64,000 bases of DNA, taken from contig CAJWBH010000008.1 of assembly GCA_913019975.1 (NCBI GenBank), forward strand, positions 1-64,000, written 5' to 3'. Under the pieces are notes generated by a model. That model did no database searches and was not told the origin of the DNA. It saw only the letters and a program-made list of their open reading frames with translations. The translations under genes were made by a program, and so were the position numbers. The stretch is from Thalassolituus maritimus (GTDB taxonomy: Bacteria > Pseudomonadota > Gammaproteobacteria > Pseudomonadales > Oceanobacteraceae). Positions 3,407-62,143 of the stretch are shown in pieces. Each line of letters begins with the position of its first letter. The first letter of the stretch is position 1.

Positions 3407-3500
3407 TTATACGTCAGTTATACACAATAGAATAAATTTGTACAACAGATAAAATACCGCCACAATAACCGAGTGCTTAACCCAGATTGCTTTGTACAAC
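3407..3500. promoter_or_regulatory. Putative LitR-type operator cluster (four TTRTACAA-like sites)
   Basis: Between the divergent acyl-CoA dehydrogenase and FAD-oxidoreductase genes lie TTATACG (3407), TTATACA (3418), TTGTACAA (3438) and TTGTACAA (3492). The hexamers start at 3408, 3419, 3439 and 3493. The motif matches the array before the photolyase operon and the sites before the LitR gene at 57 kb. A minus-strand promoter, GTACAA at 3440-3445 (read TTGTAC) and GTTATA at 3417-3422 (read TATAAC) with 17 bp between, overlaps two sites. A plus-strand -10-like TAAAAT lies at 3450-3455. The regulator assignment is inferred from motif sharing. Confidence 0.55.
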
Positions 3501-3576: not shown

Positions 3577-4563
3577 ATGAAGAAGATCGCCATTATAGGC
3601 GCAGGCGTTGCTGGACTGACCGCACTCCAGGCACTGAAGCAGCAAGACTGCTCCGTGACTGTTTTTGACAAGTCGAGAGGTTCAGGCGGCCGTCTCTCGA
3701 GCAAAAAATCCGGAGCATCCAGTTGGGACATGGGCGCTCAGTTCATGCGCGCGCACACTAAAGAGTTTAAGGCTCAGCTGAAGGCGTGGGAAACCGACGG
3801 CTGGATCGCACACTGGGATGTTACTCCCTGGTCTATCAACGGTACGCAAAGAACGGCCTCGCCGGATGATGTTGACCGCTATGTCGGCATGCCCCGTATG
3901 ACGGGTCTCAGCCGGAAGCTGCTAGAATCGGCGGATGATTTCATCACGCAAACACGCATTGTCGAGTCCCGGTTTAATAGCGACCAACTCAACTGGTCAC
4001 TGGTCGCTGAAGATGGTTCAGAATTTGGACTGTTCGATGAGCTCATTATCAACACGCCACCACAACAGGCCCTGCCACTCCTGCCAGCAGAATCACCGCT
4101 CATTGAGCAGGTAGACAGTATTCATATGCTGCCTTGCTGGACACTCCTGTACGGATTCGACGAACCACTGGCTTGTGCTTTCGATGCTGCCTTTGTGAAG
4201 TCAGGTCCTATTTCATGGATAGCCAGAAACAACAGCAAACCCGGGCGCGACGCCCGCGAGGCCTGGGTTATTCAAGCAAATCATGAATGGAGCGAACGTA
4301 AAAAAGATGCTCCACGCGAGGAAGTTCAGAAAGAACTGGAAGAAGCCTTCGCTATCGCGACAGGCTGCACTGTAACTCCTACGGATATCTGGCTACATCG
4401 CTGGCTATATTCATTACCCAGCAATGCGCCGGGGCTTGGCGCCCTGCGTGACGAACGACATAATCTCACGTTATGTGGCGACTGGTGTCACAAACCTTCT
4501 GTCGAAGGCGCTTGGCTGAGCGGTCGCGCCGCCGCAAACATTCTCACGGGAAACAAATCATGA
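3577..4563 (+). CDS. FAD-dependent oxidoreductase, renalase-like (COG3380 type)
   Basis: The protein opens with a Rossmann FAD motif, GAGVAG at residues 8-13, followed by an acidic residue at the end of strand two and a GGRLSS flavin-contact motif. It ends with the amine-oxidase-type segment LTLCGDW ... SVEGAWLSGRAAA. Length (328 aa) and layout fit renalase-like bacterial flavoproteins of unknown substrate. I chose the ATG at 3577 because the dinucleotide motif then falls at the usual position; an upstream in-frame start at 3487 would add a 30-residue tail that does not look like protein. It overlaps cbiX by four bases, and the operator cluster at 3407-3500 lies just upstream. Confidence 0.85.
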   Translation: MKKIAIIGAGVAGLTALQALKQQDCSVTVFDKSRGSGGRLSSKKSGASSWDMGAQFMRAHTKEFKAQLKAWETDGWIAHWDVTPWSINGTQRTASPDDVDRYVGMPRMTGLSRKLLESADDFITQTRIVESRFNSDQLNWSLVAEDGSEFGLFDELIINTPPQQALPLLPAESPLIEQVDSIHMLPCWTLLYGFDEPLACAFDAAFVKSGPISWIARNNSKPGRDAREAWVIQANHEWSERKKDAPREEVQKELEEAFAIATGCTVTPTDIWLHRWLYSLPSNAPGLGALRDERHNLTLCGDWCHKPSVEGAWLSGRAAANILTGNKS

Positions 4564-4970
4564 CGGACTCTAGAACCGCCACTCTGTTACTGGCTCATGG
4601 CAGTAGCGACGCTAACTGGCTCGCGCCTTTCTCTAACCTTCTGGCGAATATACGCAAAGGCCTGCAAGGTGAACGGGTAGAGCTTTCTTACATGGAGCTC
4701 GCAGAACCCTCCATGGAAGGACAGATCATCAAGCTTGCTGAAGAAGGCTTCGGCCACATTGATATCATGCCGTTATTTTTCGCTGCCGGACGCCACCTTA
4801 GAAAGGACGTGCCCGGCCAGATCGAAGCTCTGCAGACCACCCTCACCGAACAAGGACTGAAGGTCACCATTGAGCTGCACCCTCCCGTTGGTCTGGAGCC
4901 AGAAGTGACAGATGCTCTGCGTAACATCGTAATAAGGCAGGTCAACTCAGATCCGGCCTCTTCTGAATGA
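4560..4970 (+). CDS. cbiX: CbiX-type sirohydrochlorin chelatase, short form
   Basis: The sequence LLLAHGSSDANW near the N-terminus holds the chelatase histidine, and a second histidine region, PLFFAAGRHLRKDVP, follows in the middle. The 136 aa fit a single-domain CbiX (CbiXS), which inserts cobalt, or iron in siroheme pathways, into sirohydrochlorin. The start at 4560 shares ATGA with the stop of the FAD oxidoreductase, showing translational coupling. An in-frame upstream start at 4473 lies inside the preceding gene and is unlikely. Its placement beside LitR-type operators suggests light- or porphyrin-linked control, but this is inference. Confidence 0.85.
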   Translation: MTDSRTATLLLAHGSSDANWLAPFSNLLANIRKGLQGERVELSYMELAEPSMEGQIIKLAEEGFGHIDIMPLFFAAGRHLRKDVPGQIEALQTTLTEQGLKVTIELHPPVGLEPEVTDALRNIVIRQVNSDPASSE

Positions 4971-5050: not shown

Positions 5051-5148
5051 TTATACAAAAAATAGATTTCCTGTACAATTTTTATTGACTTGTACAAGAA
5101 ACCCAGCGCAGAATGAACTTATACAAATAACTCCCAGGAGTTGTACAT
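5051..5148 (+). promoter_or_regulatory. Putative LitR-type operator array and promoter of the photolyase operon
   Basis: Five copies of TTRTACAA-like sequence are seen here, with hexamers starting at 5052 (TATACA), 5072 (TGTACA), 5091 (TGTACA), 5120 (TATACA) and 5142 (TGTACA). The distances are 20, 19, 29 and 22 bp, close to whole numbers of helical turns. A candidate promoter is TTGACT at 5085-5090 and CAGAAT at 5109-5114, 18 bp apart, with one operator copy in the spacer. The last copy overlaps the start codon region of the first gene. This is the architecture expected for a cooperative MerR/LitR repressor; binding is inferred. Confidence 0.7.
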
Positions 5149-6118
5149 GGTTTATTCATCCGACGATAAAATCCCTGTAGGCATCAGTGCCTGCCTCACT
5201 GGTCAAGCTGTGCGCTTTAATGGTAGCCACAAGCGATCACGCTTCTGCACCGACGTTCTCAGCGAATACTTCAACCTCCGCCCGATGTGCCCTGAAGTGG
5301 CGATCGGCATGGGCACGCCTCGCGAGCCTATTCGTCTGGTCAGTGACACGCCTGCAGACGAGAGTGTCCGGGCTGTGGGCGTTGACTCACCTGACATCGA
5401 TGTCACTGACGACCTCCGTTCGGAGGCCGTGAAGGTCAGCGATCTCAATCAAGATCTCTGCGGCTTTATATTTATGCAGAAGAGTCCGAGCTGCGGGTTG
5501 TTCGGTGTAAAGCGCTACCTGAAAAATGGTCACCCTGAAGGTAAAGCGTCAGGTATTTTTGCCAGCGAGTTTGCGCGCTTGAATCCACTTCTGCCAATCG
5601 AGGAAGCTGGGCGCTTAAACGATGCAGCGTTACGTGAGAACTTTATGGTCCGCGTGTTCACCTATCGCGATTGGCAGCTGTTCACACAAACGACGGTTAC
5701 CCCCGCGCGACTGATCGATTTCCACTCTCGGTATAAGTACCTGATTATGGCGCACAGCACCGTTCTGTATAAGGATGCGGGCCGTCTGCTCAGTGATTTA
5801 TCCGGTGATATTAATCAGATTGCCGACGAGTACTTCGCGCTCCTGATGACGGCTCTCGCCAAGCCCGCCAGTCGCAAAACGCACACCAATACACTGATGC
5901 ACTTGCAGGGGTATCTGAAAAATCTCATCAGTGCAGCAGATAAAGAAGAGCTGGCGCGGATTATTCTGGAATACCGTCGCGGGATTATTCCTCTCGTCGT
6001 CCCGCTTACTTTGCTGAAGCATCATCTGAACCACCACCAGGAAGCGAACGCCTACGCACGGCAGCAGGTTTATCTGAATCCGCATCCTTATGAACTGGGT
6101 TTGAGGAACACGCTGTGA
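5147..6118 (+). CDS. DUF523 (TudS-like) and DUF1722 fusion protein
   Basis: The N-terminal half (residues about 9-160) is DUF523. It has conserved cysteines in SACLTG (C16), PMCPE (C48) and PSCG (C116), the three positions that hold a [4Fe-4S] cluster in the thiouracil desulfurase TudS. The C-terminal half is DUF1722 (YbgA-like), with the motif SRYKYLIMAHS. The 323-residue fusion is the common form in gammaproteobacteria and often sits beside photolyase genes. I chose ATG 5147 because CCAGGAG ends six bases before it, whereas the in-frame TTG at 5141 directly abuts the ribosome site. It overlaps the LitR gene by GTGA. A thio-nucleobase role is inferred from TudS. Confidence 0.85.
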   Translation: MVYSSDDKIPVGISACLTGQAVRFNGSHKRSRFCTDVLSEYFNLRPMCPEVAIGMGTPREPIRLVSDTPADESVRAVGVDSPDIDVTDDLRSEAVKVSDLNQDLCGFIFMQKSPSCGLFGVKRYLKNGHPEGKASGIFASEFARLNPLLPIEEAGRLNDAALRENFMVRVFTYRDWQLFTQTTVTPARLIDFHSRYKYLIMAHSTVLYKDAGRLLSDLSGDINQIADEYFALLMTALAKPASRKTHTNTLMHLQGYLKNLISAADKEELARIILEYRRGIIPLVVPLTLLKHHLNHHQEANAYARQQVYLNPHPYELGLRNTL

Positions 6119-6972
6119 ATATTGCAGAGTGTGTGGGCTACCCAATACGTGAGTTTGCACGCCTGACCGGGGTCAACCCAGTCACCCTCAGGGCATGGGA
6201 GCGCCGCTACGGCATCATTCAGCCTTTGCGGACGGCTAAAGGTCACCGCTATTACACCGACGATCATGTCACTCAGGTGAAGTCGATCCTGTACTGGCTT
6301 GATCAGGGTTACCCAATTCGTCAGGTAAAGCTATTACTCAACGAGCCGCCGGCCCATCCATCGTCGCCATCTGATGAGTGGGACGACATTAAAAAACGGC
6401 AGCTGGCCGCTGCCCGTGATCTTAATTCCCGGGCGCTGGATGATGAATGGAGTAACGGTCTGGCAAGTTATCCGATGGCCGTTTATTACGAACGCTGTCT
6501 AGTCCCTGTTATTACTGAACTTCAACAAGACAGCAACGGCACTCTGATCCTCAACGCCTATACCCATTTGCTGCAGCGCAAACTCGCACAACTGATACAG
6601 CTCCAACAAAAGCATGCGGAAGGCCCGGGGCTGCTTATGTGCACTAACCACGAACAGGCAGAACTCCATCTTCTTGCCGCATCTTATGCCCTGGGAGCCG
6701 CCGGATTCCGACTTGAGTACTTTGGCGTGAATCTGAATCCGGATGACATACGTATAGTGTCAGACATGCTGGATTTCTCCTGGGTGTGGGCACACGTTCA
6801 CCCGACGGGTCATGACGAACAGGCTTTATGGCAAAGCCTTTCAGAGAAATGCCGGATTCCGGTTTACTTTTCGGGCGCCATCCCCGACGACACAGACGAA
6901 GCACAGGCACTGCAACAACCCATGAGTAAGCAGATACAGACATTCATCCAACACGCCGGAGGCCGCTCATGA
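6115..6972 (+). CDS. MerR/LitR-family regulator, photolyase operon copy
   Basis: Residues 10-75 form a MerR-type winged helix with the LitR/CarH signature (NPVTLRAWERRYG, then RTAKGHRYY). The rest resembles the cobalamin-binding half of LitR/CarH proteins. At 183-188 it reads ELHLLA, so the E and H of the E/DxHxxG cobalamin motif are present but the glycine is replaced by alanine. I see no Wx9EH photolysis motif. It is therefore either a degenerate B12 sensor or a class II LitR that relies on a separate photoreceptor. GTG start, coupled to the preceding gene by GTGA and to phrB by ATGA. The operator array at 5051-5148 suggests autorepression. Confidence 0.85.
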   Translation: MNIAECVGYPIREFARLTGVNPVTLRAWERRYGIIQPLRTAKGHRYYTDDHVTQVKSILYWLDQGYPIRQVKLLLNEPPAHPSSPSDEWDDIKKRQLAAARDLNSRALDDEWSNGLASYPMAVYYERCLVPVITELQQDSNGTLILNAYTHLLQRKLAQLIQLQQKHAEGPGLLMCTNHEQAELHLLAASYALGAAGFRLEYFGVNLNPDDIRIVSDMLDFSWVWAHVHPTGHDEQALWQSLSEKCRIPVYFSGAIPDDTDEAQALQQPMSKQIQTFIQHAGGRS

Positions 6973-8390
6973 CCCGCCTCATGTGGTTCAGAACCGACTT
7001 ACGTGTGCTCGACAATCCGGCACTGATGCACAGCCGCCGAGATGACGAGGAAGCAACGCTGGCTATTTACTTTGCGACAGAAAAGCAGTGGCAGCAGCAC
7101 GATCTGGGAGATCGCAGAACGAACCTGATGAAACAGGCTGCCTGTAACCTCCGGGAATCGCTTGATGGACTTGGAATCCCTTTACTCATCCTGAACAAAG
7201 AAACGTTCAAGGACAGCAGCGAAGCACTGCTGGAGATAATGGAGCGTTTTGATATCTCAGAGCTCAACTACAACCTCGAGTACGAGATAAATGAGCGCCA
7301 TCGGGATATAGAGCTAGGCCAGTGGTGCAAAGCGAATGATGTGCAGGTCAATAAATTCCACGATCAGTGCATCGTCCCGCCGGGTGATCTGAAAACCCAG
7401 AATGATGATCCATATCGTGTGTATTCGCCTTTCCGCAAAGCCTGGCTGCGCCTGAAGAAAGACTACATGGAATCACCTTCGGCCGCTCCGTCGCAGCAGG
7501 ACATGCGCACCATTTCGCATGACATACGCGATTACTGGGCGGAGAAAAGCTGGACGCCGGACTACAACAATGACGCTCTCTGGGACCCAAGTGAAGACGC
7601 CGCACACGAACAACTCAAAGAGTTTCTGGATAAAGATGGCCTTCAGTATCACGAACAGCGCGATATTCCAGAATTAGATGCGACCAGTCGCCTTTCTTTT
7701 TATCTTGCCCTTGGGGTGCTATCGCCACGTCAGTGTATTTACACCGCCTGGCAACAGAACGGGTGTTTACTCAGTGGTGGAGAAACTGGCCTGGACAATT
7801 GGATTAATGAACTCGTCTGGCGTGAATTCTACCGTCACCTGATCGTGGCCTATCCTGAACTATGCAAGCACCGTGCTTTCCGCCCGGATTACGAGAATAT
7901 TCCATGGAGAGACAGCGCTGGAGATTTCGAGCGCTGGTGCAAAGGTGAGACGGGCTACCCTATCGTGGATGCAGCGATGAAGCAGCTGCTGGATCAGGGC
8001 TGGATGCACAACCGTCTACGTATGGTGACAGCAATGTTCCTGACTAAGCACCTGCTGATTGACTGGCACAGAGGCGAGAAATTTTTCAGCCAGCATCTGG
8101 TCGACGCTGATCTTGCTTCAAACAACGGTGGCTGGCAGTGGAGTGCGTCAACAGGCGCAGACGGTGCACCTTACTTCCGCATATTCAATCCTGTGACGCA
8201 ATCTGAACGGTTTGATGAACAAGGGCACTTTATTGCCCGCTACCTGCCAGAACTGAACAGTCTGTCGCCCAAAGCCCGACACTTTCCGGATGAAAAGGCC
8301 CGGAAAGCCAGTGGTTATCCTGAGGCAATCGTAGAGCACAAAGCAGCGCGGCAACGCGCGCTGGACACATTCAAAAGCATGGAGAACTGA
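6969..8390 (+). CDS. phrB: Deoxyribodipyrimidine photolyase (class I CPD photolyase)
   Basis: The enzyme repairs cyclobutane pyrimidine dimers using blue light and FADH-. The N-terminal alpha/beta domain (MWFRTDLRVLDNPAL) binds the antenna cofactor. The C-terminal half carries the FAD/DNA-binding signature: NELVWREFYRHL, TGYPIVDAAMKQL, GWMHNRLRM and NNGGWQWSASTG with the conserved tryptophans, then PYFRIFNP. Its 473 aa match the E. coli enzyme. It starts with ATGA overlap after the LitR-like gene, so repair is coregulated with its own regulator. Confidence 0.97.
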   Translation: MTRLMWFRTDLRVLDNPALMHSRRDDEEATLAIYFATEKQWQQHDLGDRRTNLMKQAACNLRESLDGLGIPLLILNKETFKDSSEALLEIMERFDISELNYNLEYEINERHRDIELGQWCKANDVQVNKFHDQCIVPPGDLKTQNDDPYRVYSPFRKAWLRLKKDYMESPSAAPSQQDMRTISHDIRDYWAEKSWTPDYNNDALWDPSEDAAHEQLKEFLDKDGLQYHEQRDIPELDATSRLSFYLALGVLSPRQCIYTAWQQNGCLLSGGETGLDNWINELVWREFYRHLIVAYPELCKHRAFRPDYENIPWRDSAGDFERWCKGETGYPIVDAAMKQLLDQGWMHNRLRMVTAMFLTKHLLIDWHRGEKFFSQHLVDADLASNNGGWQWSASTGADGAPYFRIFNPVTQSERFDEQGHFIARYLPELNSLSPKARHFPDEKARKASGYPEAIVEHKAARQRALDTFKSMEN

Positions 8391-8402
8391 GGCAAACGCC
8401 CG

Positions 8403-9377
8403 GTGAAAACAGGTATGACGAGCATTCGCAAAAAATCCTGGTTACTGAACATCGCCCGCTGGTTCGATTCCTACGCAGGCAGCGATGCGCCCATGACCAG
8501 TACGCAATTTAACTGGGTTCGGGTCATTCCGTTTCTGATCCTTCACCTGGCTTGTTTTGCTGCATTCTGGACTGGCGTGAGCACCGTCGCTCTGGTGACC
8601 TGCCTCGGCCTGTTCTGGCTGAGGATGTTTGCTATTACGGCGTTTTATCATCGCTACTTTGCCCATCGCAGCTACAAAACAAACCGCTTCTGGCAGTTTA
8701 TATTTGCTTTGCTCGGCAATATGTCAGCACAGCGCGGGCCACTCTGGTGGGCAGCACATCATCGTGCGCACCATCAGCACTCGGATACGGAAGAAGACCT
8801 GCACTCGCCTGTTCAGCGCGGGTTCTGGTGGAGTCACATGGGTTGGTTCACCTGCGATGCAAGCTTCAAAACTCAATTGCATAGAATCAAAGATTTCGCG
8901 CGCTTCCCTGAGCTTAAATTTCTCGACCGCTATGACGGCTTCGCGCCATTACTGCTGATCGTGATTCTATATGTCTCAGGAGAGCTGATGGCGGCCTTCG
9001 CTCCCGGCCTCAATACCAATGGCGCCCAGATGGTCGTCTGGGGCTTTGTTATCTCCACCGTCATTCTTTTTCACTCGACAGTGACCATTAATTCGCTCGG
9101 CCATATCTGGGGCTCTCGTCGCTTCAAGACCAAAGACGACAGCCGCAATAACGGTGTCCTCGCCTTGCTGACGTTGGGCGAAGGCTGGCACAACAACCAC
9201 CACCGCTGGGCAGTATCGGCCCGCCAGGGATTCTACTGGTGGGAGATCGATATCACCTACATGATACTCAAAGCAATGAGTTGGGTCGGGATCGTTCACA
9301 GCCTCAATCCTGTTCCTGCTCATGTTCTGAAGGAGGGGCGTAATGGACAACAAGCGCATTCCAGCCACAACGAGTAA
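8403..9377 (+). CDS. Membrane fatty-acid desaturase (delta-9 acyl-CoA type)
   Basis: Three histidine boxes mark a di-iron membrane desaturase: HRYFAH (83-88), HHRAHHQH (119-126) and HNNHH (263-267). Hydrophobic segments lie around residues 43-80 and 180-225. Bacterial proteins of this type introduce a delta-9 double bond into saturated acyl chains. The first possible start is GTG 8403; an ATG at 8415 would shorten it by four residues and both are acceptable. Its position between photolyase and a cyclopropane-synthase-type methyltransferase suggests it supplies unsaturated chains for later modification. It overlaps the next gene by 35 bases. Confidence 0.9.
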   Translation: MKTGMTSIRKKSWLLNIARWFDSYAGSDAPMTSTQFNWVRVIPFLILHLACFAAFWTGVSTVALVTCLGLFWLRMFAITAFYHRYFAHRSYKTNRFWQFIFALLGNMSAQRGPLWWAAHHRAHHQHSDTEEDLHSPVQRGFWWSHMGWFTCDASFKTQLHRIKDFARFPELKFLDRYDGFAPLLLIVILYVSGELMAAFAPGLNTNGAQMVVWGFVISTVILFHSTVTINSLGHIWGSRRFKTKDDSRNNGVLALLTLGEGWHNNHHRWAVSARQGFYWWEIDITYMILKAMSWVGIVHSLNPVPAHVLKEGRNGQQAHSSHNE

Positions 9378-9840
9378 GACAGCAGGGGCACATACAACAG
9401 ACTCCCGGCTAGCTGCTTTTTACAAGCTCTATAACACACTCGGCCCAGAAACCGCGGGGACACAGAAGCTACGGCGTTGCCTGGCGGAGGTCTACCACCC
9501 GGATATCATTTTCAGTGACCCGATGCACCGCATACTGGGCATTGATGCGCTGGAAAAATACTTTGAAGGCCTGTACGAAAATATCACGTACATCGATTTT
9601 CAGTTTCACAAAGCCTGGGTCGACTCTGATGAAGGCTCAGTGCACTGGACGATGCGTTATCGTCACCCACGACTGAAAGCCGGCAAACACGATATTAAGG
9701 TCGATGGCGTCTCTCTGCTGCGCTGGAAAGATAACCTGGTGATCCAGCATCAGGACATTTTCGACGCAGGCAGCCTGCTTTACGAACATCTGCCAGTGCT
9801 CGGCTGGCTAATCCACAAACTGAAGGAGCGCATGGCATGA
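9343..9840 (+). CDS. NTF2/SnoaL-like protein
   Basis: The 165-residue protein has the cone-shaped NTF2 fold pattern: an N-terminal helix with LAAFYKLYNTLG, then YHPDIIFSDPMHRILGIDAL, and beta strands ending in WKDNLVIQHQDIFD. Members bind small hydrophobic ligands or act as isomerases or cyclases, and no specific substrate can be given. AGGAGG lies seven bases before the ATG. The gene starts inside the end of the desaturase and overlaps the following SDR gene by ATGA. Its presence in photolyase/lipid operons of other proteobacteria supports a shared pathway. Confidence 0.75.
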   Translation: MDNKRIPATTSKTAGAHTTDSRLAAFYKLYNTLGPETAGTQKLRRCLAEVYHPDIIFSDPMHRILGIDALEKYFEGLYENITYIDFQFHKAWVDSDEGSVHWTMRYRHPRLKAGKHDIKVDGVSLLRWKDNLVIQHQDIFDAGSLLYEHLPVLGWLIHKLKERMA

Positions 9841-10658
9841 CACAGGCACCTCCACTCAGTCAGCAGGTGATATGGCTGACAGGCGCATCCTCGGGTATCG
9901 GAGAAGCGTTGACGGATGAACTCGCACCGCGTTGCAAAGCGCTTTTCATCAGCGCCCGCTCTGAAGAAAAGCTGCGCCCTCTGGCGGCAAAGCATTCCAA
10001 TGTGACCGTTATTACCGCTGATATCACAGACGAAAGCAGCCTTCATGAAGCAGCGTCTACCATTGAAAAAGCGCATGGGCATCTGGACACCCTGATCGCA
10101 AATGCTGGGACTTGCGAATACGTCGACGTCACTGATTTTGATACGCAATTGTTTCGACGGGTTTTTGAAACCAATGTGATGGGACTGGTCAACACCACCG
10201 CTGCCGCTTTACCACTGCTTCAGAAAAGCCAACGAGGCTATCTGGTCGGCGTTGGTAGCAGCGTCTCTATGCTTGCCATGCCACGCGCACAAGCTTATGG
10301 CGCGAGCAAAGCAGCAGTCGCACATTTTCTGGAAAGTATGAAAGCCGATCTCAAGGCCATGGATATCGACGTGTCTCTGGTCAGCCCGGGCTTCGTCAAA
10401 ACACCACTGACAGACGCAAACGACTTTCCTATGCCAATGCGCATCAGCGCTGAGCAAGCAGCAGAAGAGATCGTAAAAGGCGTTGAGAAGCGCCAATGGC
10501 ACATACACTTTCCGAAAGGGTTTACCCGTATTCTTTGGTTTATCGGGCAATTGCCCGCTTTTCTTCGCCACAGGATCACGGCTCAGATGTCCCGTACTGA
10601 TGAAGCGCTGCTGCAACAGGGAAAACGACAGATAAAACAACAGGAATCTGATTCATGA
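9837..10658 (+). CDS. Short-chain dehydrogenase/reductase
   Basis: This is a classical SDR with the NAD(P) motif TGASSGIG (15-22), NAG at 89-91, catalytic serine around 141-142, and YGASK with Tyr154 and Lys158. Arg at position 41 (SARSEEK) favours NADPH. Members of this operon type are thought to act on modified membrane acyl chains, but the substrate here is unknown. It is coupled on both sides by ATGA overlaps. Confidence 0.88.
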   Translation: MTQAPPLSQQVIWLTGASSGIGEALTDELAPRCKALFISARSEEKLRPLAAKHSNVTVITADITDESSLHEAASTIEKAHGHLDTLIANAGTCEYVDVTDFDTQLFRRVFETNVMGLVNTTAAALPLLQKSQRGYLVGVGSSVSMLAMPRAQAYGASKAAVAHFLESMKADLKAMDIDVSLVSPGFVKTPLTDANDFPMPMRISAEQAAEEIVKGVEKRQWHIHFPKGFTRILWFIGQLPAFLRHRITAQMSRTDEALLQQGKRQIKQQESDS

Positions 10659-11917
10659 ATAAACGCGTCGCAATCATTGGTTCAGGTATCGCAGGATTAA
10701 CCTGTGCCTGGTTATTAAGAGAGAAGTACGATGTCTCTCTTTATGAAGCAAATGACTATGCCGGTGGTCATACTCAAACGACAGACGTTGAGGTTAACGG
10801 CACCAGCTGGCCAGTAAACACCGGGTTTATCGTATACAACGACTGGACGTACCCGAACTTTATCCGCCTTATGGATTTGCTCGGTGTTAAAAGTGAAGAG
10901 TCGGACATGAGTTTCAGCGTAAAGTGCGAGCAGTCAGGGCTTGAGTACAATGGCCATACCCTTAATACATTGTTCGCTCAACGCAGAAATATTTTAAAGC
11001 CTTCATTCTGGGGCATGATCCGCGACATTCTGAAATTCAATAAAGAAACCCGGGAAGAGCTCGCTAATAACAGAGTCGATCAGTCTGAAACGCTCGGCGG
11101 TTACCTGCAGCGGAAAGGCTACGGCGAAGCTTTCAGAACAAAATACATCATTCCTATGGGGGCCGCAGTCTGGTCAGCCAGTGAAGAAATGATGATGCAA
11201 TTCCCGGTCTATTTTTTCCTTCGCTTTTTCAATAACCATGGCATGTTGAGTGTTGATGAACGCCCGCAGTGGCGGGTCATTTCGAACGGCTCGCGCAGTT
11301 ATGTGACACGCATACTCGAAGATCTGCCCGAAGATCAGGTTCATCTGAATACGCCAATTGACGGCGTCAGCCGCTCTGCAGACGGTGTCATCGTCAGCAG
11401 TCACCGGGGGCATGAGCACTTTGATGAGGTGATTTTTGCCTGCCACAGTGATCAGGCACTGGGAATGCTGAAAGACGCGACCAGCGATGAGAAGGATATT
11501 CTCGGTGCTATTCCCTACAAGATGAACGATGTCGTTCTGCACACAGATAAAACCATTCTGCCCCAGCGTCGATTGGCATGGGCCTCCTGGAATTATCATA
11601 TTGGAGAGGAAAGTCAGGATTCGGTCGCCGTCACCTACTACATGAATCGCTTACAGAATTTCGATGACGCACCGGTCGATTTTTGTGTCACGCTGAATAA
11701 AACAGAAGCGATTGATCCCGATAAAATTATTCGACAGTTCCGCTACGCACATCCGGTGTTTACTCTCGAGGGTATGGCCGCACAACACAGACATAGTGAA
11801 ATCAGCGGCAAAAATCACTCTCATTTTTGTGGCGCTTACTGGTTTAACGGTTTCCACGAGGACGGTGTGAAAAGTGCTCTGCGTGTGACGGAAGCGTTGG
11901 GAGTTCCTCTGCCATGA
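10655..11917 (+). CDS. FAD-dependent amine-oxidase-like oxidoreductase (COG2907)
   Basis: The FAD-binding motif GSGIAG is at residues 9-14, followed by YEANDYAGGHTQTT, the GGH form typical of COG2907 proteins that accompany cyclopropane-synthase-like methyltransferases. Its 420 aa are normal. The family is required for methylated or furan fatty-acid formation in some alphaproteobacteria, where it acts as a desaturase/oxidase on acyl chains. I infer a similar role here from its neighbours. ATGA overlaps occur with both adjoining genes. Confidence 0.85.
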   Translation: MNKRVAIIGSGIAGLTCAWLLREKYDVSLYEANDYAGGHTQTTDVEVNGTSWPVNTGFIVYNDWTYPNFIRLMDLLGVKSEESDMSFSVKCEQSGLEYNGHTLNTLFAQRRNILKPSFWGMIRDILKFNKETREELANNRVDQSETLGGYLQRKGYGEAFRTKYIIPMGAAVWSASEEMMMQFPVYFFLRFFNNHGMLSVDERPQWRVISNGSRSYVTRILEDLPEDQVHLNTPIDGVSRSADGVIVSSHRGHEHFDEVIFACHSDQALGMLKDATSDEKDILGAIPYKMNDVVLHTDKTILPQRRLAWASWNYHIGEESQDSVAVTYYMNRLQNFDDAPVDFCVTLNKTEAIDPDKIIRQFRYAHPVFTLEGMAAQHRHSEISGKNHSHFCGAYWFNGFHEDGVKSALRVTEALGVPLP

Positions 11918-12816
11918 GCATGACCCAGAGTGCAATATTTACCGGCACAGTTCGTCACAGGCGTTTTCATCCAGTTAAACACGCCCTGAATTACCGCGCT
12001 TTTATGGTGTGGCTGAATCTGGATGAGGCGGACGATGTGCTCCACCGCTCTGCACTCTGGGGGCAATCCCGCTTTTCTCTTGCGCGCTTTCGTCGCGAGG
12101 ACTACTTTTCACTGCCTGACCTACCACATCAATCAACAGCGGATAACCTTAAGCTGCACGTCTGTGAAGCCTTCCGGCGCGAAACAGGTATGGAGCCGGA
12201 GCAGATCTGTATGATGACCAATCTGCGCTATTTCGGTTATCTGATTAACCCAGTGACCTTCTATTACGCCTACGATGCTGATGGCAAACATCTGGGTATT
12301 CTTTCTGAGATTACCAATACTCCATGGGATGAGCGGTTTCACTACACACTGCTCAGCCAGCAGGCGGCCAGTCATGCAACCGCCACGCATGCCACCCCGG
12401 AAGAGAAATTTCGCGGAATAAAGCCAGAACATACTCAACAACATGCAGATGGCCACCAGCGCCATCGTTATCGGTTCAATAAAGTTTTTCATGTATCGCC
12501 ATTTAATCCGCTGGATATGACGTATATCTGGAGCATGCCAGAAGTGACGGACGACTGCCTGATTCATATGCAGACGATGAATCAGGGCAGGCTCGACTTC
12601 GATGCCACGATGACTATAAACAGACAGCCCATGACATCGAAAACGATGCGCAGAACCTTGCTTCAGTACCCCTTTATGACCATGAAGGTGGTTTGGGGAA
12701 TTTACAGCAATGCGTTGCGTCTCTGGCTGAAGAAAAGCCCTTTTTACGATCACCCTGAAAATGATCCCGAGCAGGACCATAAAAAATCTATCGCCCCACG
12801 ACAGGAGCACTTATGA
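11914..12816 (+). CDS. DUF1365 protein
   Basis: The protein contains the DUF1365 landmarks: GTVRHRRFHPVKHALNYRAF at the N-terminus, FGYLINPVTFYYAYD in the middle and KVFHVSPFNPLDMTY, followed by a C-terminal TLLQYPFMTMKVVWGIY segment. No enzymatic role has been shown for the family. It almost always lies between a COG2907 oxidoreductase and a cyclopropane-synthase-like methyltransferase, exactly as here. ATGA overlaps join it to both neighbours. A role in membrane-lipid modification is inferred from that linkage. Confidence 0.9.
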   Translation: MSMTQSAIFTGTVRHRRFHPVKHALNYRAFMVWLNLDEADDVLHRSALWGQSRFSLARFRREDYFSLPDLPHQSTADNLKLHVCEAFRRETGMEPEQICMMTNLRYFGYLINPVTFYYAYDADGKHLGILSEITNTPWDERFHYTLLSQQAASHATATHATPEEKFRGIKPEHTQQHADGHQRHRYRFNKVFHVSPFNPLDMTYIWSMPEVTDDCLIHMQTMNQGRLDFDATMTINRQPMTSKTMRRTLLQYPFMTMKVVWGIYSNALRLWLKKSPFYDHPENDPEQDHKKSIAPRQEHL

Positions 12817-14063
12817 AAACACTGACAGTGACCGCCGAAAATATGCCCTGGATTGATCGTTTCTGCCGTAATGGGCTGATCGATACGCTTCAGAAACTTC
12901 ACACTGGATCTCTGGAAATTGTCGAGGGTGATAACACGTTGCAGTTCGGTAAAGCCGGATCAGACATGCACTCACGCATCGAGATTCTGGACAGCGAGGC
13001 CTACCGCAGCATTGCACTGAACGGCAGCGTCGGCGCTGGTGAATCCTACATGACCGGTGACTGGACCTGCTCAGATCTCCCGATGCTGATCCGGATTCTG
13101 TCCCGTAATAAAGACGTCGTTGATCAGATAGACAGTGGCTTGGCGAACCTGGGTAAGTTTGCCCTTAAATGGCTGCACTCACTCAACCGCAACACTGAAA
13201 AAGGTTCACGACGCAATATCGCGGCACACTATGATCTCGGCAACGATATGTTTGAACTCTTCCTTGATCCGACCATGATGTATTCCAGTGGTATATTCCC
13301 GAGTGCAGATGCCACTATGGAAGAAGCGTCAGTGTATAAACTGGACCGTATCTGCAAAAAGCTCGACCTGCAGCCAACAGATCACCTGGTGGAAATTGGT
13401 ACCGGCTGGGGAAGCATGGCCATCCACGCGGCGAAACATTACGGCTGTAAGGTAACCACAACGACTATTTCCGAACAGCAATACGCCTGGGCCGAGAAGA
13501 AGGTCAAAGCGGAAGGCCTGGAAGACAAAATTACCCTACTCAAAAAAGACTACCGTGCACTCGAAGGTGAATACGACAAGCTTGTTTCTATCGAGATGAT
13601 TGAAGCCGTGGGCTGGGAATATCTGGATACCTACACAGCGACTATAAGCCGACTTCTGAAGCCTGAAGGTATCGCCCTGATTCAGGCGATCACAATTGAA
13701 GATCAACGTTACGAGCAAGCGAAAAAAGACGTCGATTTTATTAAGCGTTACATCTTCCCTGGCAGTTTTATTCCTTGTGTGACCGCTATTCAGAATTCAT
13801 TCACACAGTGTACCGATATGAAAATGGCACACATGGAGGATATTACGCCCCACTATGCCCGCACACTTGATGCCTGGAGAAAGCGCTTCCTCGCCAACAA
13901 GAAAGCCATCATGGCTAAGGGATATGGCGAAGACTTTATTCGCCTCTGGGATTTCTACTTCGCGTACTGTGAGGGAGGGTTCGCTGAGCGGGTTATTGGT
14001 GATGTGCATCTGATGTTCGCCAAACCACTCAATCGCAGTGAACCGGTACTTGGTAACCTCTGA
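12813..14063 (+). CDS. Cyclopropane-fatty-acyl-phospholipid synthase family methyltransferase
   Basis: The SAM-binding motif VEIGTGWG spans 193-200, preceded by the family segment AAHYDLGNDMF (137-147), which packs against the acyl chain. Enzymes of this family transfer a methyl group to the double bond of phospholipid acyl chains, giving cyclopropane, methyl-branched or furan precursors. The 416 aa are slightly longer than E. coli Cfa. With the desaturase and two oxidoreductases upstream it could form a complete path for photo-protective lipid modification. It is coupled to DUF2878 by TGATG. Confidence 0.92.
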   Translation: MKTLTVTAENMPWIDRFCRNGLIDTLQKLHTGSLEIVEGDNTLQFGKAGSDMHSRIEILDSEAYRSIALNGSVGAGESYMTGDWTCSDLPMLIRILSRNKDVVDQIDSGLANLGKFALKWLHSLNRNTEKGSRRNIAAHYDLGNDMFELFLDPTMMYSSGIFPSADATMEEASVYKLDRICKKLDLQPTDHLVEIGTGWGSMAIHAAKHYGCKVTTTTISEQQYAWAEKKVKAEGLEDKITLLKKDYRALEGEYDKLVSIEMIEAVGWEYLDTYTATISRLLKPEGIALIQAITIEDQRYEQAKKDVDFIKRYIFPGSFIPCVTAIQNSFTQCTDMKMAHMEDITPHYARTLDAWRKRFLANKKAIMAKGYGEDFIRLWDFYFAYCEGGFAERVIGDVHLMFAKPLNRSEPVLGNL

Positions 14064-14590
14064 TGTCTGCGTCTCAGCTGAAGATCATTAATGCCGTGGC
14101 GTTCCAGCTTTGCTGGTTTGCGTGTGTACTGGGAGGCAGCCTGTGGGCGCTCCCTGCTGTACTGGCATTTATGATCTGGCACCGACAGATCGCGACCAGA
14201 GCAGAATGGCTGTTTATCTCGATACTCAGTCTCTGTGGTATTGCTTTGGACACAGTCTGGTATCAACTCGGGATCTTCAGCTTTGATAACTACTCCATGC
14301 CGGTTATTCCAGCCTGGCTCGCGCTGCTATGGCTCGCCTTTGCTTCGACGCTATTCCATTCGCTATACGTAATCTTCTCCAGAATCTGGCTCATTGTGCC
14401 TCTGGCTGCGATATCCGCCCCGATCAGCTACTACGCAGGTCAGGAGTTCGGAGCCATCGTCCTTGGCAGCAACGCCCTTTGGGTCATTTCAGCGTCCTGG
14501 GGCAGCCTGATGCTGATTGCCTCACTTGCACATTCGCATCAGTTTCCTTCAGAAATATCATCCACGACTCAGAGGAAAAGCCGTGATTAA
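14063..14590 (+). CDS. DUF2878 integral membrane protein
   Basis: A 175-residue protein with about five hydrophobic segments. The run QLCWFACVLGG near residue 12 and LDTVWYQLGIFSF near 70 match the DUF2878 pattern. The function of the family is unknown; it is often the gene after a cyclopropane-synthase-like methyltransferase. Its start codon shares a base with the stop of that gene, and it overlaps the next by eight bases. Confidence 0.8.
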   Translation: MSASQLKIINAVAFQLCWFACVLGGSLWALPAVLAFMIWHRQIATRAEWLFISILSLCGIALDTVWYQLGIFSFDNYSMPVIPAWLALLWLAFASTLFHSLYVIFSRIWLIVPLAAISAPISYYAGQEFGAIVLGSNALWVISASWGSLMLIASLAHSHQFPSEISSTTQRKSRD

Positions 14591-15281
14591 GTATCTTACG
14601 ACGGCCTTATTAGTTTCTTTATCCAGCCTGCTGACCGCGGAAGAATCGGTTCTATCTTACCGAGGTGATGCATTCAGTCTGGAGGGCGGCGAACTTCTTT
14701 ATACGGAATATCACGAGTTAACCACTAAAGACGGCCGGCCTGTTGCCCGTGAGACCCGCTATCAGACACCAAACACTGAAGAGTTCGCACAAAAACAGAA
14801 TCAATACGGTGAAAATCCGGCCACACCCAACTTTAACCTCAACGACACACGCTATGACTACTCTGAAGAGGTAACCTACAGCAATGGTAAGTGGCGTGTC
14901 AGTTACAGTGAACCTGATGAGTCAGATAAAGGGACACTCGGGTCACCAGATTACACTCCGGTCATTGATGCAGGCTTCGATGAGTTTGTACGCTCGGAGT
15001 GGCCAAAGTTGCTGGAGGACAAAACCGTCCGGTTTTCGTTCGCGGTACCTTCAAGGCTGGAGTGGGTTAATTTCCGTCTGATTCCTCTGCAGCGTGAAGA
15101 GGGAAAGCTCACAGTCGAAATGCGGTTGAGCTCCAGGCTCCTGTCCTGGCTTCTTGAGCCAGTTGAGCTGACTTATGATGAAAAAACTCAGCGACTCCTG
15201 ACCTACCGTGGCCTTACGAATATCAGAGATAAGGACGGCGAGGGCATCAAAGCTGAAATCCGATACACTTACCCGGATTAA
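14583..15281 (+). CDS. Exported hypothetical protein of the photolyase operon
   Basis: I choose the GTG at 14583: it follows an AGAGGAAAAG ribosome site and gives a clean signal peptide (MIKYLTTALLVSLSSLLTAEE). A longer in-frame start inside DUF2878 gives no sensible N-terminus. The mature part (about 215 aa) is rich in beta strands and acidic and tyrosine residues, like a periplasmic or outer-membrane lipid-handling protein. I do not recognise the family. It sits between the membrane protein DUF2878 and a TonB receptor, so a cell-envelope role is likely. Confidence 0.7.
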   Translation: MIKYLTTALLVSLSSLLTAEESVLSYRGDAFSLEGGELLYTEYHELTTKDGRPVARETRYQTPNTEEFAQKQNQYGENPATPNFNLNDTRYDYSEEVTYSNGKWRVSYSEPDESDKGTLGSPDYTPVIDAGFDEFVRSEWPKLLEDKTVRFSFAVPSRLEWVNFRLIPLQREEGKLTVEMRLSSRLLSWLLEPVELTYDEKTQRLLTYRGLTNIRDKDGEGIKAEIRYTYPD

Positions 15282-52525: not shown

Positions 52526-53341
52526 CTACCGTAACCGCGAGGTAATTTCAGAAATGTCTTCGGGCAGGACAATATCGAGCGAACGCGCCACCTGCTCATT
52601 CACGGTGACCGAGAAGTAAGGGTTGTACCCCGGGGGAGGGAGCACGTCTGATTCGATGATTTCGACCAGTCGCTTAACGGTATCTGCGAGAGAACTATAA
52701 GTGGTGGCAATAGCACCCGCGCGGATATAGGCCTGATGAGGGCCAACCAGAGGGATGTTCTGGCGATAAGCCGTGATCAGAATATTTTTGATCGTTGATG
52801 GGTTGTACACCCCCCTGTCGAGGGTGCCCAGCAATACATCGTGCTCAGCCAGAGCTTCTTTTAAGGTCCGGTTCAGGCTGTCCTCTGGTTTCCTGGCAAA
52901 CACAGTAAAGTCATCGCCTTGCAGTAATCCAATTTCACGGCTGACCCAGTCAGGCGCTTCATCTGACAGGATCAGCGCCAGACGAGCGTCAGGAAACAGC
53001 AACCTCGTCAGATCAAGCTGGCGCTGCACAGGGGGCTCAGAAAATATCGCACTCTGAATCTTGCTACTGTTAGCCTCAATCGCCTCTCGACGGGTCCAGA
53101 CCACCACGCTTTTCTGCTTACCGCGCCAGCTTTTAGCGGTCGCGTCACCGGCAAGAATGACCAGGTCGTCCTCTCCCACCAGCTCTTCAGAATGAACCTG
53201 CCGTACGGGCTTTCCGATTGCAGAGGAAACTCCCTCGGCCAGTGCTAACAGCGCAGGCGAGTGGTTCTCAGACAATAGCAGAACATCAGCGCGGGCCAGA
53301 GCCGCGCCGAAAAGCAGGATGAAGAATCCCGCTACGCGCAT
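52526..53341 (-). CDS. Periplasmic binding protein, PF04392-like (copy 2)
   Basis: Paralogue of the preceding entry, sharing NIKNILITAYRQNIPLVGPHQAYIRAGAIATTYSS-like text (here divided: ILITAYRQNIPLVGPHQAY) and NPYFSVTVNEQVARSLDIVLPE. A signal peptide (MRVAGFFILLFGAALARA) is present. Its start overlaps the stop of the TonB receptor gene (TGATG), so it is translated right after it. Two close but diverged binding proteins may bind different ligands or form a pair. Confidence 0.8.
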   Translation of the reverse strand: MRVAGFFILLFGAALARADVLLLSENHSPALLALAEGVSSAIGKPVRQVHSEELVGEDDLVILAGDATAKSWRGKQKSVVVWTRREAIEANSSKIQSAIFSEPPVQRQLDLTRLLFPDARLALILSDEAPDWVSREIGLLQGDDFTVFARKPEDSLNRTLKEALAEHDVLLGTLDRGVYNPSTIKNILITAYRQNIPLVGPHQAYIRAGAIATTYSSLADTVKRLVEIIESDVLPPPGYNPYFSVTVNEQVARSLDIVLPEDISEITSRLR

Positions 53342-56361: not shown

Positions 56362-56826
56362 TCAGGCTTTGCTGGCCTTCAGCGCAGCAAGTTCTTCCTC
56401 CGCCGCACGGGCGCGGGCTTCGGCTTCGATCTGTGCGGTGACATCTTTCTGGATGCCGATGTAATACGTCAGCTGATCCTGATCATTGCGTATAGGAGAC
56501 AAGCTCAGCTCATTCCAGAACATTGTGCCGTCTTTATGATAATTTCTCAGAACTACCCGGGTACTGCGCCCTTCTTTGATGGCCGCACGTACTTCCTGCA
56601 ATCCCTCCTGCTCACGGTCACCGGTTTGCAGAAAGCGACAATCCTGATAGAGGATCTCGTCAGCGGTATAGCCTGTCAGGCGCTCAAACGCCTTGTTGAC
56701 GTAAATCAGAATGTTATCGTCACCTTCCTGCTCGGCAATCACGATGCCGTCGTTTGAGGCATCAACTGCCTTCTTCAGAAGTTCAAGATTGATAGGGCCC
56801 TGCTCATCATTCAGGTCTGTGACCAT
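56362..56826 (-). CDS. Short LOV-domain blue-light photoreceptor
   Basis: The 154-residue protein is essentially one LOV domain. DCRFLQ (residues 62-67) contains photoactive Cys63, which forms the adduct with FMN. Conserved flavin contacts are seen: Arg64 and Gln67, Asn95 and Asn105 (NYHKDGTMFWNEL), and Gln126 (YYIGIQKDV). The N-cap and C-terminal helix (131-154) look like those of the short LOV proteins of Pseudomonas putida (PpSB1-LOV), with YQDCRFLQ replacing the plant GxNCRFLQ. In that organism such a protein frees class II LitR repressors from DNA in blue light. It is divergent from a LitR-like gene, 171 bases apart. Confidence 0.93.
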   Translation of the reverse strand: MVTDLNDEQGPINLELLKKAVDASNDGIVIAEQEGDDNILIYVNKAFERLTGYTADEILYQDCRFLQTGDREQEGLQEVRAAIKEGRSTRVVLRNYHKDGTMFWNELSLSPIRNDQDQLTYYIGIQKDVTAQIEAEARARAAEEELAALKASKA

Positions 56827-56931
56827 CGATCGTCTCCGCTGTTACTCTCTGTCGCCGACTCTCTGACTGTGATCAGAGTCGCTTTTCATATCATTCAGAT
56901 CAAGACTGAGCGTATCAGCCTTTTGGTTTCT

Positions 56932-56978
56932 TTTACATTATGTACAACTACTTATAGAATTTGGACTGCTTTGTATAG
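56932..56978 (+). promoter_or_regulatory. Promoter and LitR-type operators between LOV and LitR genes
   Basis: TTTACA (56932-56937), 17 bp and TAGAAT (56955-56960) form a good sigma-70 promoter for the LitR-like gene. TGTACA (56941-56946) sits in the spacer, as in the photolyase promoter, and TGTATA (56972-56977) lies 31 bp further on, close to three helical turns. Autoregulation and joint control of the LOV gene are inferred. Confidence 0.65.
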
Positions 56979-56997
56979 TTCTGGAAATAAATTCGTC

Positions 56998-57909
56998 ATG
57001 TCCGCCCCCTCTGAATCTCAGGCTGCCTACTATCCGATACGGGTAGTCTCGAACGAAACCGGTGTTAACGCGATTACTCTGCGTGCGTGGGAGCGACGTT
57101 ACGGCCTCATTACCCCGAAACGTACCGCCAAGGGACATCGTCTGTATACCGAAGCAGACATACAACTTATACGCAAAGTTGTATCACTTTTGCAGCGCGG
57201 CATTCCCATTTCTCAAGCTAAGGCGATGCTGGAAAATGGTGAGCCTGAGCCCGATATTAATGTGCAGACCAGTCAACCGTCACAATGGTCACAGTACAGA
57301 GCCCGCCTCGCTAGCGCGATACGGGACTTCGACGACGTTGAAATTACGCGGGTCATGGACGAGGTAACCGGCTTCTTTCCAGTCGACATCGCCCTACGCT
57401 TTTTGCTGCTTCCACTTCATCAGCAGCTACGGGAGCAGATAACCGAACCCCTGGGCCCCGCCCGGTTACAGTTCTTCGCAGGCTTCCTGCAGGGCCGGCT
57501 ATGCATGCGGCTCAGCGAATCTTCTGAGCATTCACTCAACGCCACTCTGGTATTGGCTAATACGGTATACAGTGATGATCTGGAGCTGCTTCTGCTGGGC
57601 ATACTGCTGAAACAGTTTGGTATTCGGGTTATCCGCCTCGCCGGTCTTTCGACACCGCAGGAAATTTCCGAACTCATCCGCACGCAGAAGCTTCAGGGCG
57701 CAGTCGTTGGCGTTGCTGATACGCCGGAGCCGGGCCAGTTACAGAGTCTCAGAAACCTTGCTGCCGAAACGGGTCAGCTGATCTTCTGCAGTGGGCAGAA
57801 TGTCTCTCAGGCGAGTACGTTACGGGAGCGCGGCCTCGTGGCACTGAACCGCGACCCACAACAGGATGCTCTCACAGTAAGAGATGTACTGACCGGCGTT
57901 AACGAATGA
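56998..57909 (+). CDS. MerR/LitR-family regulator, LOV-linked (PplR-like)
   Basis: The N-terminal MerR domain has the LitR signature (NAITLRAWERRYG, then RTAKGHRLYTEAD). The remaining 220 residues align by pattern to the cobalamin-binding half of LitR, but the region that should read E/DxHxxG is DDLELLLLG (193-201): the histidine ligand is gone. That identifies a class II LitR, which does not use B12 and in pseudomonads is controlled by a LOV partner. The ATG at 56998 gives 303 aa; an upstream in-frame start at 56869 would run through its own promoter. It overlaps rsmC by ATGA. Confidence 0.88.
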   Translation: MSAPSESQAAYYPIRVVSNETGVNAITLRAWERRYGLITPKRTAKGHRLYTEADIQLIRKVVSLLQRGIPISQAKAMLENGEPEPDINVQTSQPSQWSQYRARLASAIRDFDDVEITRVMDEVTGFFPVDIALRFLLLPLHQQLREQITEPLGPARLQFFAGFLQGRLCMRLSESSEHSLNATLVLANTVYSDDLELLLLGILLKQFGIRVIRLAGLSTPQEISELIRTQKLQGAVVGVADTPEPGQLQSLRNLAAETGQLIFCSGQNVSQASTLRERGLVALNRDPQQDALTVRDVLTGVNE

Positions 57910-60673: not shown

Positions 60674-61312
60674 ATGATCATCCCTCGTATTCCATCAATG
60701 CACGCGCCGCTGGAACACTTCCTGACGCACTGTCATAAGAAGCGCTATCCGGCCCGGACCACCATCATCCATGCAGGTGAAGAAAGCGACACCCTGTATT
60801 ACCTGATGAAAGGGTCTGTGAGCGTCACCATTGAGGACGACGAAGGCCGTGAGATGATCATGGCTTATCTCAACGAAGGCGACTTCTTTGGAGAAATGGG
60901 CCTGTTTGACGACGAAAACAGCCCGCGCACAGCGTGCGTCCGCGCCAAAACCCCCTGCGAAGTCGCTGAAATTTCATATGCCCGCTTCCGTGAACTGGCA
61001 GACTCCGATACTGAACTCGTATTCCGTATCTTCCGCCAGATGGCCGAGCGCCTGACCCGTACCACCCGCAAAGCTGGCGACCTCGCCTTCCTTGACGTAA
61101 CCGGTCGTGTCGCAGGCACCCTGCTGGATCTTTGCAAACAGCCAGACGCCATGACCCACCCAGACGGCATGCAGATCAAAATCACCCGTCAGGAAATCGG
61201 CCGCATCGTTGGTTGTTCCCGCGAGATGGCGGGCCGCGTACTCAAATCTCTGGAAGAACAGGGGCTGATCAGTGTGTCTGGTAAAACCATTGTGGTGTTT
61301 GGTACTCGCTGA
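60674..61312 (+). CDS. crp: cAMP receptor protein (Crp/Vfr)
   Basis: The cyclic-nucleotide domain has [19 protein letters not shown], with Glu and Arg of the phosphate-binding cassette. The HTH is [27 protein letters not shown]. The 212 aa and neighbours (OsmC-like, trp genes) fit pseudomonad Vfr. It is a global regulator of carbon use, pili and virulence genes. A terminator follows at 61332. Confidence 0.95.
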
Positions 61313-61331
61313 GTACCGCAGCTGCTGAAAG

Positions 61332-61356
61332 CGCCCGGTTTTGACCGGGCGTTTTT
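61332..61356 (+). terminator. Rho-independent terminator after crp
   Basis: CGCCCGGT-TTTG-ACCGGGCG is an 8-bp stem directly followed by TTTTT, 19 bases after the crp stop. Confidence 0.93.
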
Positions 61357-61370
61357 GTATGTGAGGTTTA

Positions 61371-61489
61371 TAGCTGCCTTCGGCAGAGAGGTTCTTTTGG
61401 CTGCCGCCGGGTTCCATTGCCCTTGTTAGCAGTAGCTGCCTTCGGCAGAGAGGCGCTTTTGGCTGCCGCCAGGTTCCTATGCCCTTGTT
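61371..61489 (+). repeat. Tandem structured repeat downstream of crp (two 57-base copies, period 62)
   Basis: Copies at 61371-61427 and 61433-61489 differ at a few bases. Each starts with TAGCTGCCTTCGGCAGAGAG, which forms a C(TTCG)G tetraloop hairpin, and ends GCCCTTGTT. The same element occurs twice in the opposite direction at 61959-62138, downstream of trpC, with an altered but still paired stem. Confidence 0.8.
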
Positions 61490-61958: not shown

Positions 61959-62138
61959 GATCGGAAGGGGCCTGCCCCTTGCAGAAAAAACAAAGGCCCG
62001 GCGGCAGCCAAAAAAGCCTGTCCACCGAAGATGGCTATAAACTCTGAGGACCGAAAGAGACTTGCCCCTTGCAGAAAAAACAAAGGCCCGGCGGCAGCCA
62101 AAGAAGCCCACCCACCGAAGGTGGCTATAAACCGACCG
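61959..62138 (-). repeat. Tandem structured repeat downstream of trpC (two copies, period 90)
   Basis: The two copies (from about 61959 and 62049) share CCCCTTGCAGAAAAAACAAA, then GGCCCGGCGGCAGCCAAA and CCGAAG-TGGCTATAAAC. On the minus strand they read CCACCTTCGGTGG, a cTTCGg hairpin in sense to trpC. Compared with the crp-side copies, the stem bases differ on both sides (CTGCC/GGCAG against CCACC/GGTGG), a compensating change. In the left copy (61959) one stem pair is broken. Confidence 0.8.
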
Positions 62139-62143
62139 TCAGG

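Follow-up and report, generated by a model that had tools for sequence, protein, structure and literature searches.

A short LOV photoreceptor and a B12-less LitR regulator form a predicted blue-light switch in a relative of Thalassolituus maritimus

The LOV-LitR2 locus

The window analysed here is a 64,000-nucleotide stretch (contig CAJWBH010000008.1, assembly GCA_913019975.1) from a 3.49 Mb genome in 34 contigs that is close to Thalassolituus maritimus. It carries a gene for a short LOV blue-light photoreceptor (56362..56826, minus strand) head to head with one for a LitR/CarH-family MerR regulator, here called LitR2 (56998..57909, plus strand). A first-pass annotation made from the letters of the window had described a divergent pair of open reading frames (ORFs) in what is probably a marine bacterium; both frames lie where it placed them, and the habitat fits the nearest named genome, T. 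maritimus, whose LOV and LitR proteins are 99% and 97% identical to those of the window.

The LOV protein has 154 residues, and its best matches in the Protein Data Bank (PDB), compared by sequence only and covering residues 12-152, are PpSB-type short LOV proteins (7r5n, 2.9e-60; 7a6p, 1.8e-56; 3sw1, 3.8e-53). The alignment with PpSB1-LOV that had been proposed as a check gives 66% identity across 127 residues and places the protein with the PpSB/PmSB type. The photoactive cysteine is present as Cys63, the counterpart of C53 in PpSB1-LOV. The accompanying statement that all flavin contacts are kept was nearly right: among 21 PpSB1-LOV positions checked, with residue roles taken from PMC5314338 and PMC4589677, 17 are retained (V19, A21, D52, C53, R54, Q57, R61, R70, N85, N95, E96, L97, S98, I113, G114, Q116 and K117) and four differ, namely I69 (Val), I99 (Leu), F112 (Tyr) and, the most notable, R66, a contact of the flavin mononucleotide (FMN) phosphate that is replaced by Leu. 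With a core that holds the photoactive cysteine and nearly all FMN contacts, the protein is, by sequence, a member of the short LOV (PpSB-LOV/PmSB-LOV) family.

The R66 substitution bears on the expected photocycle. In PpSB1-LOV, R66I cuts recovery from 2471 to 23 min (PMC6047819), published values for the protein itself being at variance (109 min in PMC9758184), and PmSB-LOV recovers fully within 56 min (PMC9758184). Because of the R66I effect and the recovery of PmSB-LOV, our guess by analogy is that the adduct would decay over tens of minutes. The first 10 residues of the protein form a conserved, DEQGP-like extension ahead of the usual short-LOV start, which LOV proteins of the Thalassolituus group share and the Pseudomonas LOVs in the alignment lack, with starts as set by us. 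In one relative (L133, genome G043), the LOV match has a single TGA within the aligned stretch.

LitR2 has 303 residues and most likely begins at ATG 56998, judging from the starts of its relatives, GTG 56869 being merely the mechanical ORF start. Its helix-turn-helix (HTH) is of the MerR type (PF13411, 6.8e-18), and a profile built from 30 homologs matches CarH at 2.4e-28 (profile positions 10-241 against residues 9-228 of the 3whp chain). The structure model has the CarH fold, in which the Rossmann fold is kept and helices 96-173 form a four-helix bundle, as in the CarH match. The Pfam families of B12 domains give no match in LitR2 at E 0.001, and this includes PF02607 (B12-binding_2), though the model keeps the four-helix bundle; the NCBIfam CarH model scores 55 bits, far under its cut-off of 400. 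CarH residues W131, H132, E141, H142 and H177 correspond to I148, T149, L157, Q158 and D193, so that all five B12 residues checked are replaced, and the earlier description of a regulator lacking the B12 histidine holds. On sequence and model, LitR2 belongs to the LitR/CarH family, with a MerR HTH and CarH-like C-terminal domains, and its residues show no sign of B12 capacity, the ligand and cap positions having been lost.

Conservation of the pair

Relatives were scanned with the LOV protein, and the best 80 of 432 loci found were kept for neighbourhood comparison; 19 of these belong to the Thalassolituus/Oceanobacter/Bacterioplanes group (named genomes and metagenome-assembled genomes) and 61 lie outside it. 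Two genome sets, both including the host, were also searched: a family sample of 44 and a class sample of 232. Co-occurrence counts across genomes ignore kinship.

The head-to-head LOV-LitR2 pair is real and well conserved in the family. All 19 group loci carry rsmC and LitR2 in head-to-head orientation to LOV, with ppa on its far side (1.9 kb more distant in L018), and in 18 a TonB receptor is also nearby, the exception being L015. Outside the group, a LitR gene lies within the available flank in 44 of 61 loci, head to head in four (L056, L065, L072 and L076), in line in one (L050) and on the far side of LOV in the remaining 39. Of the 17 loci with no flanking LitR, 13 (all except L021, L031, L034 and L054) were traced together with L050, and LitR was present in 14/14 genomes (E <=1.6e-42).

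In the family sample, short LOV occurs in 28 of 44 genomes (E 1.4e-63 or better), eleven more having weaker LOV/PAS matches alone, at 1e-10. LitR2 is found in the same 28 and adjoins LOV on the opposite strand in every one; a second paralog, LitR1, accompanies them in 26, G019 and G029 being without it. Among the 16 genomes with no short LOV, G012 has a lone LitR-like match (3.6e-27). In the class sample, LOV was found in eight genomes and LitR in 35, with both in seven and LitR alone in 28. One of these LOV matches (G161) sits in a 469-aa frame and is not a short LOV; without it, co-occurrence is 6/7 (p 5e-5).

Promoter and operators between the genes

A single sigma-70-like promoter was found between LOV and LitR2, directed to LitR2. 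This likely litR2 promoter (56932..56960, plus strand) has a -35 element TTTACA (56932-56937), a 17-nt spacer and a -10 element TAGAAT (56955-56960). Since shuffled sequences are expected to give 0.6 such hits, the scan proves nothing by itself; the block is kept in most of 20 aligned intergenic regions. A putative array of LitR boxes (56941..56977, plus strand) overlaps it, made up of TGTACA at 56941, the degenerate units TTATAG at 56952 and TGGACT at 56962, and TGTATA at 56972, in steps of 11, 10 and 10 bp. The degenerate units are our own reading, modelled on the CarH operator, an 11-bp repeat with TnnACA (PMC9304148). TGTACA falls within the promoter spacer and TGTATA just beyond the expected start point. 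Oceanobacter-like relatives (L016, L029, L041 and L070) have lost the spacer box and carry TGTACA-N4-TGTAYA after the -10 element instead. The LOV-LitR2 intergenic regions of the window and of 19 orthologous loci, which are related and not independent sequences, together hold 37 half-sites, where shuffling gives a mean of 4.2 (maximum 11 in 200 shuffles).

The divergent layout had been taken to suggest feedback on both genes, and here the two genes part. Half-sites occur within 150 bp of LitR promoters in 19/19 Thalassolituus-group loci and 34/43 Pseudomonas-type loci, so that repressor feedback by LitR is well supported on sequence grounds, with boxes overlapping the litR2 promoter. LOV genes of the group do have half-sites within 150 bp upstream in 18/19 loci, most of them 86-148 bp ahead of the LOV start, since the intergenic region is common to LOV and LitR2; outside the group, only one of 61 LOV loci has one, with 3.6 half-sites expected. 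Feedback on LOV is not supported, and the gene is probably constitutive. In P. mendocina, quantitative reverse-transcription PCR gave 0.9-1.1-fold for LOV (constitutive) and merely 1.4-1.5-fold for pmlR2 (PMC9758184), and by analogy with that small rise even LitR feedback could be weak. A notion that boxes on the LOV-adjacent LitR promoter are family-specific, drawn from the four head-to-head Pseudomonas-type pairs, all without them in the intergenic region (L056, L065, L072 and L076), was rejected because 34 of the 43 Pseudomonas-type LitR promoters are boxed and the head-to-head G202 pair (L180) has one half-site.

The predicted target operon and LitR1

About 45 kb from the pair, inside the same window, lies a putative operon (5147-15281) overlooked in the first-pass annotation. 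It begins with a gene for a RudS-type TudS-DUF1722 protein of the tRNA 4-thiouridine desulfidase family (5147..6118, plus strand; name after PMC11417400), followed on the same strand by litR1 (6115..6972), whose product is 30% identical to LitR2, and by the gene for the DNA photolyase PhrB (6969..8390). The remainder (8403..15281, plus strand) encodes a fatty acid desaturase, a SnoaL-like protein, an SDR, an FAD oxidoreductase, a DUF1365 protein and, as its last three genes, a CMAS/UfaM-like methyltransferase, a DUF2878 protein and a final ORF with no Pfam match. The position of LitR1 matches that in Pseudomonas-type clusters. Within the limits of their flanks, L065, L072 and L076 show this gene order too, and so does L180 on inspection by eye. 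Among the 26 genomes with LitR1, its distance from the pair is 31-58 kb in 16 and more than 2 Mb (in contig coordinates) in three; seven have it on another contig.

Upstream of rudS (operator and promoter region 5052..5147, plus strand), half-sites stand at 5052, 5072, 5091, 5120 and 5142, with a -35-like TTGACT between the second and third. Such half-sites recur in 26/26 family loci, host included, with three to five in each and 114 in total against a shuffle mean of 5.0; in the Pseudomonas-type loci L072 and L076, the rudS promoter carries two boxes at a distance of 11 bp and a further one close to the start codon. RudS has been noted within light-responsive LitR operons (PMC11417400), a paper that calls class II LitR B12-dependent, which PMC9758184 contradicts. 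The rudS-litR1-phrB-...-ufaM operon is the likely target of LitR and LOV.

A candidate second LitR target is the pair of FAD-dependent oxidoreductase and CbiX-like genes at 3577..4970 (plus strand), ahead of which the host sequence has half-sites at 3419 and 3439, in the 20-bp step seen at rudS, and at 3493 (3419..3498, plus strand). The genome has eight sites of paired boxes with a gap of 12-16, four of them at the rudS and FAD oxidoreductase promoters of the window, against 0 and 1 for control patterns. Others, at 25687 (inside a pilin ORF), C8:68240 (around the start of a TetR-like ORF), C1:241508 (with lexA on one side and a TetR-like gene on the other) and C11:69694, are not claimed as targets. 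Outside the window, at G000:C6:6523-11147 (L186), three ORFs stand in a row, two with PF03441 photolyase/cryptochrome matches and one photolyase-related by eye; TTATACATTAGTTATACC and TGTATA lie directly ahead of the start codon of the first. These ORFs may be further LitR targets.

Relationships among LitR proteins

A LitR tree spanning the HTH to the C-terminus, with reference members of LitR classes III-V outside it, resolves four groups: family LitR2, family LitR1, Pseudomonas LOV-adjacent LitRs and Pseudomonas operon LitRs. CarH was dropped because very long branches meet with it as outgroup, and the tree was rebuilt without CarH, L050 and 15 rows (near-duplicates), leaving 78 of 95 rows. 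Mean identity between groups is 24-35%, and LitR2 stands 24-27% from each of the others. LitR2 would probably work like a class II LitR; the trees do not show orthology to PmlR2 or strict class membership.

Proposed mechanism and its alternatives

From the genes and residues observed, the predicted fold and the conserved boxes and pairing, we infer a light response that is likely an anti-repressor switch for blue light, like that of PmSB-LOV/PmlR2; homology supports the earlier proposal of the same switch as in Pseudomonas. In the dark, LitR2, with LitR1, would block sigma-70 promoters by occupying TRTACA boxes at the rudS-litR1-phrB-...-ufaM operon and the litR2 promoter, and probably also before the FAD oxidoreductase-cbiX genes. 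Under blue light, a Cys63-FMN adduct would arise in the short LOV protein, which would bind the HTH domain of LitR2, LitR1 or both and bring LitR off the DNA. Derepression would yield photolyase, tRNA 4-thiouridine desulfidase and the products of furan fatty acid genes. Light should also raise LitR1 and LitR2, a negative feedback on the repressor, while LOV itself would probably be constitutive. Back in the dark, the adduct would decay and repression return.

Several observations weigh against this switch. LitR2 has a mean identity of 27% to the Pseudomonas LOV-adjacent LitRs, hardly above its identity to LitR1 (24.5%); the best tree unites family LitR1 and LitR2 with poor support (59), and by approximately unbiased (AU) tests neither Pseudomonas group is rejected as the partner of LitR2 (p 0.55 and 0.65). 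Exact litR2 boxes are 31 bp apart and those at rudS follow steps of 20, 19, 29 and 22; because the spacings differ, a single operator rule for both promoters is not established. Half-sites are not enriched across the whole window (37 against about 41 expected). The PplR1 operator pattern with up to two mismatches has seven matches there against a mean of 4.1, not significant since 12 of 100 shuffles reach seven, and T(G/A)TACA-N12-TGTA(C/T)A without mismatch has none in the window, the half-sites at the promoters having other spacings. The case for the predicted operators is one of conservation and clustering in the sequence and not of a window scan. G198 of the class sample has LOV and no LitR at the cut-off, and family co-occurrence reflects few independent gains or losses. 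In P. mendocina itself, PmlR2 stayed on DNA in the company of lit LOV in a gel shift, and a two-hybrid assay gave equal signals in dark and light; the authors lean on surface plasmon resonance (SPR), gel filtration and run-off transcription (PMC9758184).

The partner of LOV is where the alternatives divide. It is possible, if the less likely course, that the main target of LOV is LitR1, which would repress the operon, or that LOV makes no difference between the paralogs, with LitR2 as a second layer; this is a variant within the anti-repressor switch, and its probability overlaps with that of the switch. In P. mendocina, LOV targets the HTH part, the one most alike between the paralogs, LitR1 keeps company with LOV in nearly all LOV-bearing family genomes, and over its first 30 residues the LitR1 HTH is closer by eye to Pseudomonas LOV-adjacent LitRs than that of LitR2; yet the constant neighbour of LOV is LitR2, and G019 and G029 keep LOV and LitR2 with no LitR1 match of comparable grade. 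More speculative still is a nested circuit in which LOV would command both LitR2, on its auto-repressed promoter, and LitR1, encoded within the light operon, with LitR2 of another lineage than PmlR2 and LOV having changed partner.

We consider it improbable that LOV uses another partner (e.g. the sensor kinase at 49519-51477) or acts as a redox or oxygen sensor, its linkage to LitR2 being accidental. A short LOV protein carries no effector domain of its own, which leaves its partner to be guessed, and in some genomes LOV is not beside its LitR; against this, LOV and LitR are repeatedly paired within the family and, in different arrangements, in Pseudomonas, and LOV presence tracks LitR presence across the class sample. 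Less probable still is that LitR2 is itself a light sensor of the class I LitR/CarH sort, with B12 or some other chromophore, and LOV an incidental neighbour: the CarH Rossmann fold kept in the model would favour it, and the replaced B12 residues, the lack of Pfam B12 matches and the low NCBIfam score speak against it. An ordinary B12-sensing CarH (class I LitR) was rejected on residues, W131, E141, H142 and H177 not being kept.

The preferred anti-repressor switch is of a type already known; what is new is the bacterial family, the head-to-head promoter anatomy and the presence of the target operon in the same window. It would bring to a marine family a light switch whose proof comes from Pseudomonas. 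The Thalassolituus family includes oil degraders, and its 26 of 44 genomes with LOV, LitR2 and LitR1 are a natural set for reading sensor, repressors, operators and targets together. A full-text search of open-licence PMC papers found four on class II LitR and none on Thalassolituus and the LOV domain, which is not proof of absence.

Other features of the window

Two proteins alike by eye and without Pfam match at E 0.001 (51474-52358 and 52526-53341, minus strand) sit between a TonB-type receptor and the sensor kinase and response regulator. ORFs on both strands at about 60970-62220 have short peptides in common (e.g. PLCRRQL and GPAAAK), which suggests a cluster of DNA repeats. An 820-aa protein at 43585-46047 (minus strand) is built of Asp-rich, DxDGDG-like repeats.

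Comparison with known systems

The closest known counterpart is PmSB-LOV/PmlR2 of Pseudomonas mendocina NBRC 14162, in which lit LOV binds the repressor HTH and repression is lifted (PMC9758184). The first-pass annotation had named P. putida short LOV as anti-repressor of class II LitR; genetic evidence exists there, and the biochemical proof is that of the P. mendocina pair (PMC9758184). Both loci have a short LOV protein with the photoactive cysteine near a B12-less LitR. As in the pmlR1-phrB-ufaM cluster, a second LitR shares an operon with a photolyase, an SDR, an FAD oxidoreductase and UfaM, and the target operon has TGTACA-type boxes both in its -35 region and in the stretch that separates the start site from the ATG; from gene order, PME6650 would be a rudS-like gene. 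Unlike in P. mendocina, where PME15565 is also in the cluster, LOV and LitR2 lie head to head over one intergenic region, LOV carries its conserved 10-residue extension, a fatty acid desaturase follows phrB, and exact boxes step 19-31 bp instead of 18. At 27% mean identity, LitR2 also differs from the Pseudomonas-type LOV-adjacent LitRs compared.

P. putida KT2440, with PplR1-3 and PpSB1-LOV and PpSB2-LOV, shares the same two protein families and some targets (phrB, ufaM and a litR), as described in PMC9758184; it has three LitRs and two short LOVs, against two LitRs and a single short LOV identified here, the latter with Leu at the R66 position of PpSB1-LOV. With class I CarH/LitR of Thermus thermophilus (PDB 5c8d and 3whp), LitR2 has in common the domain order and the predicted fold of HTH, four-helix bundle and Rossmann domain; in contrast to it, W131, H132, E141, H142 and H177 are all exchanged. 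PMC9758184 describes the C-terminal part of PmlR as having no similarity to known functional domains; our one structure model suggests that a B12-less LitR may retain a degenerate B12-type Rossmann fold.
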